From Bogoriella caseilytica (GTDB lineage Bacteria; Actinomycetota; Actinomycetes; Actinomycetales; Actinomycetaceae): DNA of 64,000 nucleotides. This document shows, one piece after another, positions 20,884-25,518 of the stretch; position 1 is the stretch's first letter; the number at the start of each line of letters is the position of its first letter. The stretch is from positions 930,001 to 994,000 of the forward strand of contig NZ_RKHK01000001.1 of the NCBI RefSeq assembly GCF_003752405.1, in the 5' to 3' direction. The notes below the pieces were generated by a model. That model saw only the letters and a list, made by a program, of their open reading frames with translations, made no database searches and was not told where the DNA came from. The translations under genes were made by a program, and so were the position numbers.

Positions 20884-21321
20884 ATGCCCAGCCCGACGAT
20901 CAGCACACCACCCTCCACCCCAGCCGGCAGCAACGCTCGCCGCCTCCTGGGTGCAGCAGCCTGCTTGACCGCCGTGGGCGCGCTCAGCGCATGCAGCCTC
21001 TTCGAGGAGGCGCTGCCGATCACCTATGAGGTCGACGTGGCCGGCGACGTCGATGACGAGCCGGTCCGGGTGGAATACCTCGGGCGGGAGTGGGGCCTGG
21101 GCGACCAGGAGACTGTTGGCGAAACCGTACCCCGAGCCGCCGCTCTTCCCGTGAGCTACGAGACACTCGCCCAATCTGGCGACTCGGTCTCCATCACGGC
21201 AGCAGCCATACCCGGGGCGGTCCTCAGTTGCACGGTGCTCGTCGACGGCGAAGTCGTCGACGAGCAAGAGTCACCAGCTCCGGGCGAGGAGGTCACCTGC
21301 GGGACGACTGTCCAGGAGTAG
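20884..21321 (+). CDS. MmpS-like lipoprotein
   Basis: Exported lipoprotein of 145 aa with lipobox GALSAC (Cys37). The mature beta-rich domain (ITYEVDVAGD, then VEYLGREW, VSITAAAIPGAVLSC, TVLVDGEVVDEQ and VTC) follows the pattern of MmpS proteins, the periplasmic partners of mycobacterial MmpL exporters, including the Cys pair expected to form a disulphide. No MmpL-type RND gene is present nearby, so a partner is not identified. MmpS assignment rests on motif pattern only. Confidence 0.7.
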   Translation: MPSPTISTPPSTPAGSNARRLLGAAACLTAVGALSACSLFEEALPITYEVDVAGDVDDEPVRVEYLGREWGLGDQETVGETVPRAAALPVSYETLAQSGDSVSITAAAIPGAVLSCTVLVDGEVVDEQESPAPGEEVTCGTTVQE

Positions 21322-21356: not shown

Positions 21357-21803
21357 TCACCCCTCCAGCGTGCCGATCTCGAAGTTCTCCAGCTGCCCCT
21401 CGGGCCCTTGACTCCCGCCGTGTTGCTGGGTGAACAGCTCGGTGGCATCCGTACCGCAGAGCTGCTCGATGCGGTCAGCTCCCCCGGGATGCCGGCCGAT
21501 CCAGTCGGTCAGGTCATAGACCGTGCCGTCGATGACGGCCCAGCACGAGTCAGGAGAGTCATTCTCCTCGACCTCCGCGAGCGTGATCGCGCCCTCGTCG
21601 CCGCTCTCTTCCTGGTCGTCGGCGCCGTCCTCGTCGCCGGTTTCGTCCAGGTCGCCGGCGCCGTCCTCCTGCTCGGCGCCGGTGTCCTCGTCGGACTCCG
21701 GGCTCGAACCGGCGTCGTCGGAGCATCCGGCGGCAACCACCAGCGCGGCCGCCATGAGCGGGGCGGTCAGCAGTCGGCGCATACGCGTTTGGGTGCGGGT
21801 CAT
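21357..21803 (-). CDS. cytochrome b5-like heme-binding lipoprotein
   Basis: Exported lipoprotein of 148 aa. Signal peptide with lipobox VAAGC (Cys27), an acidic Asp/Glu-rich linker (about 34-70), then a cytochrome b5 fold. Both axial heme ligands are visible: His105 in the RHPGG core motif and His128 in QQHGG, 23 residues apart as in the family. WIGRHPGG and LCGTDATELF are well conserved. It probably carries electrons outside the membrane. The start ATG follows AAGGAG by six bases. It lies 55 bp after the small membrane protein, and both lie beside the ECF sigma/anti-sigma pair. Confidence 0.85.
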   Translation of the reverse strand: MTRTQTRMRRLLTAPLMAAALVVAAGCSDDAGSSPESDEDTGAEQEDGAGDLDETGDEDGADDQEESGDEGAITLAEVEENDSPDSCWAVIDGTVYDLTDWIGRHPGGADRIEQLCGTDATELFTQQHGGSQGPEGQLENFEIGTLEG

Positions 21804-21826
21804 CAGGTTCTCCTTCGATGGAATGG

Positions 21827-21839
21827 TTGATCGGATCAA
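21827..21839. promoter_or_regulatory. palindrome TTGATC-G-GATCAA upstream of the cytochrome b5-like gene
   Basis: Perfect 6-1-6 inverted repeat in the 55-bp gap between the membrane-protein gene and the b5-like gene. It could be an operator or an RNA hairpin separating the two. No function can be assigned from sequence. Confidence 0.4.
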
Positions 21840-21858
21840 AGGCCGCTGGGCGCCACGC

Positions 21859-22245
21859 TCACTGCGTGGCGGCCGCCGTCCTGTTCGGTGAAGTGAAGGC
21901 CCACACGGCAAGCCCTGTGGCGAGCACGGTCACGACCAGTGCCCCGACCACATGCAGCGCCAGCGTCAGATAGTCCCCCAGCGCCGCTTGCGCGAAGGTC
22001 GCCCCGAACAGGACGATCGCCACCCCGGCCGCGGTACGCCCTGAACCCGTGCGCCAGGCACGCACTGTGAGGAGCGCGGCGAGCAGCCCGGAGGACACGT
22101 GGATCGCGATCGCTCCGATGCCGTGCACATCCAGGCCGCGAGCTTCTTGGACGAGCAGGCCTGCCGAGACGAAGAGCACCCCCACGAAGGCCAGGGTGAG
22201 GATCGCAGCGATCCGGGCGGCAAGCAACAACGAAGCGGGCGTCAT
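21859..22245 (-). CDS. four-helix membrane protein, possible b-type cytochrome partner
   Basis: Predicted integral membrane protein of 128 aa with four hydrophobic helices (about 12-32, 43-62, 72-89 and 93-117). His49 in helix 2 and His98 in helix 4 lie inside the membrane and could ligate a heme; His41 is at the membrane edge. The ATG at 22245 lies seven bases after a -10-like CGTAGT, so the mRNA may be leaderless. The frame extends upstream into the anti-sigma gene, but that part is unlikely to be translated. Heme binding is inferred, not shown. Confidence 0.7.
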   Translation of the reverse strand: MTPASLLLAARIAAILTLAFVGVLFVSAGLLVQEARGLDVHGIGAIAIHVSSGLLAALLTVRAWRTGSGRTAAGVAIVLFGATFAQAALGDYLTLALHVVGALVVTVLATGLAVWAFTSPNRTAAATQ

Positions 22246-22252
22246 GTGAGGT

Positions 22253-22282
22253 ACTACGGGCGAGGTGCCGAAAGAGATTGCC
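22253..22282 (-). promoter_or_regulatory. ECF-type promoter of the membrane protein/cytochrome b5-like operon
   Basis: On the minus strand GGCAATCT (22282-22275) and CGTAGT (22258-22253) are separated by 16 bp. The whole 30-bp block, including most spacer bases, is nearly the same as the block before the sigma gene at 23547-23576. It ends seven bases before the ATG at 22245. Strong candidate for recognition by the neighbouring ECF sigma factor. Confidence 0.8.
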
Positions 22283-22297
22283 GCGGCAGCATGATGG

Positions 22298-22969
22298 TCA
22301 CCAACTCGCCACCGCCCAGACGCGCCCGGCGTCATCGACGAGTTCCAGTGCCGTCAAGGCTCGCTCAGCATCGTCGAGTATCCAGAAGTTGGGTTCGTCG
22401 GCGTAGACCGTCCATTCGGCGAGGATCTCGGTGCTCTGGTCCTCGAAGACTCCGCGGCAGGCAAAGGTCGTGCCGGCGGAGGCATCATCCACCGCGAGGA
22501 TCAGCACAGGCCCCTCGGCGTCGTACCCGGCCGCTGCCCAGCCGACGGTGTCCCCTTCCGTGGTGACCAGATCTGCCGAGCGCTCTGCCTGGGCAGACGG
22601 CTGCGTCGCCTCCTCAGCGTCGCCCAGCCCGTAGGCATACATGCCGACACCGCCCGCCACCACGCCGAGCACCCACACGGCCGCGGCCGCCAGCACAGCA
22701 TGGCGACGCCGGGGCGGCGCGCTGACGGCGGGGGACGCTGACGGTGGGTGCAAGCGTGCGAGCACGCGGGACTCGAATCCCACGGGGGCGGTGGCTTCGG
22801 GGACGGCCGGGAGGAGGCTCTCCAGGGCTGCGGACAGCTCATCGTAGGCCGTGCGGCACGGCCCGCAGGCCCCCAGGTGTCGGATGATCTGGCTGCTGTC
22901 CTGAGCCGAGGCGCGACCAAGGACGACGTCGAGCAGACGGTCCTCGTCGGGATGCAGGTTCTCAGTCAT
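22298..22969 (-). CDS. anti-sigma factor (RskA type) with zinc-binding N-terminus
   Basis: Membrane-anchored anti-sigma factor of 223 aa. The N-terminal ZAS domain has the HX3CX2C zinc motif (His31, Cys35, Cys38), one transmembrane helix follows at about 91-112, and the C-terminal domain of about 110 residues is extracytoplasmic, of the RskA type. The ATG at 22969 overlaps the end of the sigma gene by 8 bp, giving coupled synthesis. It should hold the ECF sigma at the membrane until an external signal triggers release. Confidence 0.9.
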   Translation of the reverse strand: MTENLHPDEDRLLDVVLGRASAQDSSQIIRHLGACGPCRTAYDELSAALESLLPAVPEATAPVGFESRVLARLHPPSASPAVSAPPRRRHAVLAAAAVWVLGVVAGGVGMYAYGLGDAEEATQPSAQAERSADLVTTEGDTVGWAAAGYDAEGPVLILAVDDASAGTTFACRGVFEDQSTEILAEWTVYADEPNFWILDDAERALTALELVDDAGRVWAVASW

Positions 22970-23540
22970 GTGCAGTCTCCAGATGCTGGCGGATCCGGCG
23001 CAGGCCATCACGGATCCGCGTCTTCGCGGTGCCCAGAGGAATCCCTTCGCGGCGGCTGATCTCCGCCGCGGTGCACCCACCCATCGTGGCGAGGACGACG
23101 GCGCGCGCCTGCTCCCGCGAGATCCCCTGCAGGTACCGCAGTGCGGACTGGACCTCGACCCGGTGGACGGCGAGGTCCTCCGTGGTCGTGCTGCCGTCGA
23201 CAGTGGCGTGGAGGAGATGGTCCAGGATCTCGTCCTCGGCCGGGATGAGGCGCCGGGCCCGCATGACGTCAATGGCGGCATTGCGGGTGATGGTCAGCAA
23301 CCAGGTGAGCACCGTGCCGCGCCGCGGGTCGTAGTTCTGCGCCGCCCGCCAGGCACGGACGAAGACTTCCTGGCTGATGTCCTCCGCAATGGCCGTGTCA
23401 CGGATGATCGACAGGGCCAGCCCGTAGACCTTGCCCTGGAAGCGGCGCACGAAGGCTGCCGAGGTGGACTCATCCCCCACGGCGAAGGCAGCCAGAAGCG
23501 CAGCATCGTCTGCTGCATCCGCTCCCATCAAGACCACCAC
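22962..23540 (-). CDS. ECF RNA polymerase sigma factor (SigK-like)
   Basis: Sigma-70 family ECF factor of 192 aa. Region 2 contains AEDISQEVFVRAWRAAQNYDPRRGTVLTWL, and region 4 contains TAAEISRREGIPLGTAKTRIRDGLRRIR; both are typical of the SigK group. The GTG at 23540 lies six bases after a -10-like CGTAAT, suggesting a leaderless start; the ATG at 23528 is the alternative. It overlaps its anti-sigma gene by 8 bp and is apparently autoregulated from the promoter at 23547-23576. Confidence 0.92.
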   Translation of the reverse strand: MVVLMGADAADDAALLAAFAVGDESTSAAFVRRFQGKVYGLALSIIRDTAIAEDISQEVFVRAWRAAQNYDPRRGTVLTWLLTITRNAAIDVMRARRLIPAEDEILDHLLHATVDGSTTTEDLAVHRVEVQSALRYLQGISREQARAVVLATMGGCTAAEISRREGIPLGTAKTRIRDGLRRIRQHLETAHD

Positions 23541-23546
23541 TGAGAC

Positions 23547-23576
23547 ATTACGGGCGGGCAGCCGAAAAGGATTGCC
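23547..23576 (-). promoter_or_regulatory. ECF-type autoregulatory promoter of the sigma gene
   Basis: GGCAATCC (23576-23569), a 16-bp spacer and CGTAAT (23552-23547) on the minus strand. The same elements with the same spacing, and largely the same spacer, precede the membrane-protein gene at 22253-22282. It ends six bases before the GTG start of the sigma gene. Confidence 0.8.
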
Positions 23577-23615: not shown

Positions 23616-25502
<1,887 letters not shown>

Positions 25503-25518
25503 GGACGTCTCATCTATA

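Follow-up and report, generated by a model that had tools for sequence, protein, structure and literature searches.

Organization of the locus

Does an ECF sigma factor encoded beside its anti-sigma factor also control the two genes that follow, and do the products of these genes form an electron route in the cell envelope? The question is raised by a locus of Bogoriella caseilytica within a stretch of 64,000 nucleotides (contig NZ_RKHK01000001.1, positions 930,001 to 994,000), which we refer to as the window. The genes for the sigma factor, the anti-sigma factor, a four-helix membrane protein and a cytochrome b5 lipoprotein lie in series on the minus strand (Table 1). Their places and products are as described in the initial annotation, and the histidines that it listed at positions 49 and 98 of the membrane protein and 105 and 128 of the lipoprotein are present. 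The final 8 nt of the sigma gene are shared with the anti-sigma gene. An ECF factor by itself is ordinary here, because the genome, a single contig of 3,235,396 bases, has 13 matches to sigma-70 region 2.

Table 1. Features of the four-gene locus; positions are counted from the first nucleotide of the window.
Feature	Position	Strand	Characteristics
Promoter element 5' of sigma gene	23546..23576	-	CGTA to GTG start, 8 nt
ECF sigma factor, SigK-like, 192 aa	22962..23540	-	Sigma70_r2 and Sigma70_r4_2
Anti-sigma factor, 223 aa, outer C-terminal domain	22298..22969	-	HX3CX2C motif
Promoter element, second copy	22252..22282	-	CGTA to membrane-protein ATG, 9 nt
Four-helix membrane protein, 128 aa	21859..22245	-	H41, H98 and Q86 invariant in family
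Exported lipoprotein with cytochrome b5 domain, 148 aa	21357..21803	-	Ligands H105/H128, Cys pair C87/C116

The sigma and anti-sigma factors

The sigma factor matches Sigma70_r2 (PF04542, 70.4 bits) and Sigma70_r4_2 (PF08281, 31.8 bits), both above the curated cut-offs. Its best NCBIfam model is SigK (NF007228), so the description "SigK-like" given earlier is a fair one; the name SigK itself is unwarranted because the score of 139 bits falls well short of the cut-off, 226. The promoter of SigK in Mycobacterium tuberculosis is CCATCC/CCGAAT-like. As in the SigK-RskA system, the gene of an ECF factor whose top NCBIfam match is the SigK subfamily adjoins that of a membrane anti-sigma factor. Orthology to SigK was nevertheless rejected on the score below cut-off together with the single cysteine (C156) of the window protein, in contrast to the conserved pair at 133 and 183 described for M. 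tuberculosis SigK (PMC7509140).

The protein encoded beside the sigma factor carries the motif H31-X3-C35-X2-C38 and, judged by eye, a single membrane helix. Its matches to zf-HC2 (14.4 bits, cut-off 22.2) and to NCBIfam NF052375 (55.1 bits, cut-off 100) are below threshold. The motif and the overlap of the two genes agree with the earlier proposal of a zinc-type (ZAS) anti-sigma factor, which we retain as the probable assignment. In this respect the protein differs from RskA, which is described as independent of a zinc motif (PMC7406223).

A promoter element shared by two operons

The element GCAATC-N17-CGTA, of the ECF promoter type, stands 5' of the sigma gene, where the sequence reads GGCAATC-CTTTTCGGCTGCCCGCC-CGTAATG, and again 5' of the membrane-protein gene, where it reads GGCAATC-TCTTTCGGCACCTCGCC-CGTAGTA. 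Throughout the 3.2 Mb genome, the core GCAATC-N17/18-CGTA has 3 exact sites, 2 of which are at this locus, and the reversed control gave 1. A pattern built from the pair matched these two sites alone in the window and nothing in 100 shuffles, a test that is after the fact because the pattern was derived from the pair itself. Further promoter-like matches in the genome (two with 2 mismatches and one exact) were rejected as targets, since they show no excess over the reversed control (5 and 1) and their neighbours, judged by eye, are unrelated.

Both messages may be leaderless, because CGTA is only 8 or 9 nt from the start codon. The lipoprotein gene has no element of its own, and its ATG lies 55 nt past the membrane-protein stop, after AAGGAGAA; given this gap and the lack of an element, the gene is probably cotranscribed with that of the membrane protein. 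No sigma-70 promoter-like site was found between 20700 and 23700. That region has a single terminator-like site (22279-22291, against 0.5 expected), and it overlaps the second element at its edge. Among the papers listed in literature searches, no title or beginning of an abstract describes the gene set or the promoter element.

Orthologous loci in other Actinomycetota

At E 1e-25, 35 of 149 related genomes, counting its own, contain a match to the sigma factor, and seven besides its own have an orthologue above 120 bits (54-65% identity; the next best match scores 106 bits). A second set of 19 orthologue loci (L074-L092, 47-64% identity) was taken from the best 80 loci of a wider scan, with the boundary drawn where identity falls to 37-39%. 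The window, the seven and the nineteen make up 27 orthologue loci, and the rest of the best 80 are 61 other ECF loci; these counts include the near-copies L070/L071 and L075/L077. An element was recorded when the core, allowing one mismatch, lay in the roughly 200 bases preceding the sigma gene or, on the opposite strand, in roughly 300 bases; the spacing range was set after the first relatives had been viewed. By this rule, the sigma side carries the element at 22 of the 27 orthologue loci (the 27 include L073, whose sequence ends inside the sigma gene) and at 2 of the 61 other ECF loci among the best 80 listed. On the divergent side, the corresponding frequencies are 18/27 and, again among the best 80 listed, 0/61. 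Reversed controls at the 27 orthologue loci gave 0 on the sigma side and 1 on the divergent side.

The neighbours of the sigma gene were searched at 26 orthologue loci, each family being represented by one or two query sequences. A PF03640 lipoprotein is encoded at 15 of them and a cupredoxin at 5, so that 18 have either carrier, and these are exactly the 18 loci with a divergent element. DUF2231 occurs at 3/26, DUF6529 at 2/26 and a flavoprotein reductase at 3/26. L073, on a short contig, has the flavoprotein alone among the searched families, and seven loci, all among the more divergent (L084 and L086-L091), have none of them. Family names were checked by profile on examples, with L085 left out: PF03640 (L067), cupredoxin (L068, L079), DUF2231 (L082), and DUF6529 and Pyr_redox_2 (both L068) scored above the Pfam cut-offs, and the cupredoxin assignment at L092 stayed below them (20.3 bits, cut-off 27; 17.9 bits, cut-off 21.2). 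Anti-sigma homologues adjoin the sigma orthologues, and HX3CX2C is present in those that were read.

The loci with PF03640 or cupredoxin genes, from Streptomyces, Cellulomonas, Tessaracoccus, Aeromicrobium, Pseudactinotalea and others, therefore resemble the window in their orthologous sigma factor, their HX3CX2C anti-sigma factor, the element, and a target that is an exported carrier, in some cases with a small membrane partner. They differ in that the target is mostly divergent from the sigma gene, whereas that of the window is on the same strand, and in that the carrier is not a cytochrome b5 and the membrane partner belongs to another family. Because a rare element precedes both operons and orthologous loci pair the sigma factor with the same element and with exported carriers, we consider that the sigma factor very probably drives the membrane-protein/cytochrome operon, as the initial annotation had supposed.

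The spacers of the two window elements also have 12 of their 17 bases in common, and one element may therefore have arisen by local duplication of the other. Such similarity is what would be expected of a recent copy, and, as no other searched genome showed the same combination of genes, the second element could be a leftover and the four genes mere neighbours. We regard this as highly improbable: the second element retains the conserved core at 9 nt from a start codon, the genome has just one other exact core site, and in Pseudactinotalea terrae (L079) a further element occupies the equivalent position, behind the anti-sigma gene and before the cupredoxin gene. This element also precedes a gene for a membrane-type protein of 149 aa that matches no Pfam family.

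When the sigma factor, the membrane protein and the b5 lipoprotein were each searched in the 149 relatives, no genome but their own had close matches to all three. Neither a cytochrome b5 nor a window-type four-helix homologue was found at any of the 26 orthologue loci, so the exact set is seen solely here, while the kind of module recurs. The co-occurrence of the four genes, on which the initial annotation had placed weight, thus failed for the exact set and held for this kind of module with other carriers. The genomes listed include no other member of the window's genus, and close relatives could therefore still share the set. In one genome (G086), a sigma orthologue and a DUF2231-b5 fusion are encoded on different contigs.

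PF03640 was found in 6 of the 7 orthologue genomes, the seventh (G118) being 88% complete, and was not found in the window genome or in any of 14 control genomes; DUF2231 was not found in the window genome either. A tree was built from the window sigma, those of 6 of the 7 and all 19 orthologue loci and, from the other ECF loci, 14 of the 61; it has many weak forks and some very long outgroup branches. In it, the window sigma groups with those of L067 and L079 (support 99/89), both PF03640-bearing, and the carrier-bearing loci are not one clade (3 changes). The simplest reading would be a carrier swap on the lineage of the window.

A flavoprotein reductase gene adjoins the sigma pair or the carrier genes at L068 (Pyr_redox_2), L072 and L073 (the last two by similarity), and its product is a candidate electron donor for the carrier at these loci.

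The cytochrome b5 lipoprotein

The lipoprotein matches Cyt-b5 (PF00173) with 70.2 bits, above the cut-off, over residues 74-146. By eye, this domain is preceded by a signal peptide with lipobox Cys27 and then by an acidic linker. The axial histidines H105 and H128 align with those of cytochrome b2 in 3KS0. All 43 b5 domains that were chosen by similarity to the window domain, from 36 loci, retain both histidines and the Cys pair C87/C116. A disulfide between C87 and C116 would fit an exported site. The earlier description as an exported b5-like lipoprotein with both heme ligands accords with these residues and with the export signal, and we are confident, from its sequence, that the protein would bind heme.

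The closest solved relative of the domain is 1CXY (E 3e-12), which we take to be the b5-type cytochrome of Ectothiorhodospira and which has Cys at both aligned positions. It differs in being a 90-aa entry with neither linker nor membrane partner, and its second heme His lies two columns off in the local alignment. Matches in G021, G034 and G132 were rejected as cytochrome b5, because they rest on the lipoprotein's N-terminal, acidic part.

A comparable arrangement exists in a single polypeptide: of 40 exported actinobacterial b5 ORFs, 16 also encode a DUF2231-like four-helix part, confirmed by Pfam in two. Like the window pair, these fusions join a four-helix membrane module to an exported b5 with the same His and Cys pairs; unlike it, they are one protein, their membrane part is DUF2231, and no sigma orthologue lies within 1.5 kb. 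Across the 36 b5 loci, neither a sigma factor, an anti-sigma factor nor a window-type membrane protein was found within about 1.5 kb.

Small-genome actinobacteria encode another type of exported protein, of about 280-360 aa and ending in a cytochrome b5 domain (L191, L192, L196, L197, L199, L201, L205, L208, L209 and L212). Its N-terminal part, in L191 and L197, matches no Pfam family above cut-off.

The four-helix membrane protein

The membrane protein has no Pfam or NCBIfam match above cut-off and no convincing one among PDB sequences; Frag1, DUF6113 and DUF6220 were rejected as too weak (E 0.0079, 0.25 and 0.016). Among 30 aligned family members, the window included, H41, H98, Q86 and G29 are invariant, and H49 is kept in 19 and replaced in 11. 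Alignment A3 leaves out L170 for a frame error. The ligand pair H49/H98 that had been proposed must accordingly give way to H41/H98 as the conserved pair. The proposal of a di-heme protein fared no better: with just one invariant His pair, at most one heme is suggested, and no curated family or solved structure matches. In a model predicted from the single sequence, which is poor (pLDDT 64), H41 and H98 are close to the starts of helices 2 and 4, and any matching membrane depth of the pair depends on this model. That one heme is bound is plausible, with the balance of sequence evidence falling somewhat short of favouring it.

The family occurs in 5 of the 149 close genomes and in 54 of the 394 genomes of the class (own included in both). 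Neither at five loci read by eye nor at 29 loci searched is there a sigma, anti-sigma or b5 gene within 1.5 kb of the four-helix homologue. This wide distribution apart from b5 and regulator, and the lack of a match to any known cytochrome above cut-off, are what one would expect if the sigma factor controlled the operon and its products formed no electron chain. The b5 protein would then be a stand-alone redox or heme buffer of the envelope, and the four-helix protein an anchor, a signal input to the anti-sigma factor or the site of some other membrane chemistry. We hold this to be rather unlikely in view of the invariant H41/H98 near the predicted helix starts, in the low-confidence model, and of the repeated association of exported carriers with small membrane proteins.

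At five loci of one actinobacterial family, f35 (L164, L166, L167, L169 and L171), the four-helix homologue adjoins a gene for a UbiA-type prenyltransferase, which is PF01040 at L164 and L166 and was judged by eye at the other three; it looks like heme O synthase. A stretch Q-x3-G-...-H is weakly similar to heme A synthase (CtaA/COX15), with an hhalign probability of 25% in a comparison built from 14 of 20 CtaA loci, a value too weak to use for an origin of the protein from half of CtaA.

These two observations would suit a pair that works on heme and not on electrons, inserting, storing or relaying it on the outside of the membrane. We consider such heme handling distinctly unlikely, given that bis-His b5 domains bind heme tightly and that the cupredoxins or PF03640 proteins of the orthologous loci suit electrons better than heme.

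Proposed mechanism and its implications

The reading that we prefer, and judge moderately probable, is that the ECF sigma/anti-sigma pair forms a switch that amplifies itself and serves a single redox module of the envelope. A signal in the envelope would release the sigma factor from its membrane-bound, putatively zinc-type anti-sigma factor, and the released sigma factor would transcribe its own operon and the two-gene membrane-protein/cytochrome operon. The four-helix protein would hold one b heme through H41/H98 near the outer face and would pass electrons from the membrane to the exported b5 lipoprotein, which would in turn reduce an acceptor in the envelope. The hand-over between the two proteins, taken as a separate step, is about evenly balanced on the sequence evidence, with a slight lean against it; the four-gene cluster encodes no electron donor. 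From the earlier interpretation, this mechanism keeps the regulation and the ligands and export of the b5 protein, and abandons the di-heme centre at H49/H98 and the co-occurrence of the exact set.

Because relatives pair the switch and promoter with other exported carriers, the set has the look of an exchangeable, jointly controlled module for electron transfer at the cell surface. It is conceivable, though on balance we lean against it, that in Actinomycetota one sigma/anti-sigma/promoter cassette drives a plug-in slot for envelope electron carriers that is filled interchangeably. PF03640, cupredoxin and cytochrome b5 might then replace one another, several of them accompanied by a dedicated small membrane protein (DUF2231, DUF6529 or the window's four-helix family), a proposal that we hold with the same reserve. 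If true, PF03640, DUF2231, DUF6529 and the four-helix family of the window would belong to one undescribed electron-export pathway.

Dedicated sigma/anti-sigma pairs are common, and their targets and signals are often not known; an element that can be read from sequence names likely targets in several actinobacterial families. The one described here points to a shared envelope redox role, and gives a first testable function for PF03640, DUF2231, DUF6529 and the four-helix family, which are catalogued without a function. Of these, the b5 variant lends itself best to an assay, since spectroscopy reports on its heme.

Features flanking the locus

Convergent with the b5 gene, an ORF on the plus strand (20884-21321) encodes an exported lipoprotein-like protein of 145 aa, for which neither Pfam nor NCBIfam gave a match at E up to 1. 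On the other side, a TPP riboswitch on the minus strand (25405-25510, 72.8 bits) lies upstream of a large minus-strand ORF (23616-25421), which presumably resembles thiC. The true start of this ORF is probably further downstream, because the listed start falls within the riboswitch.
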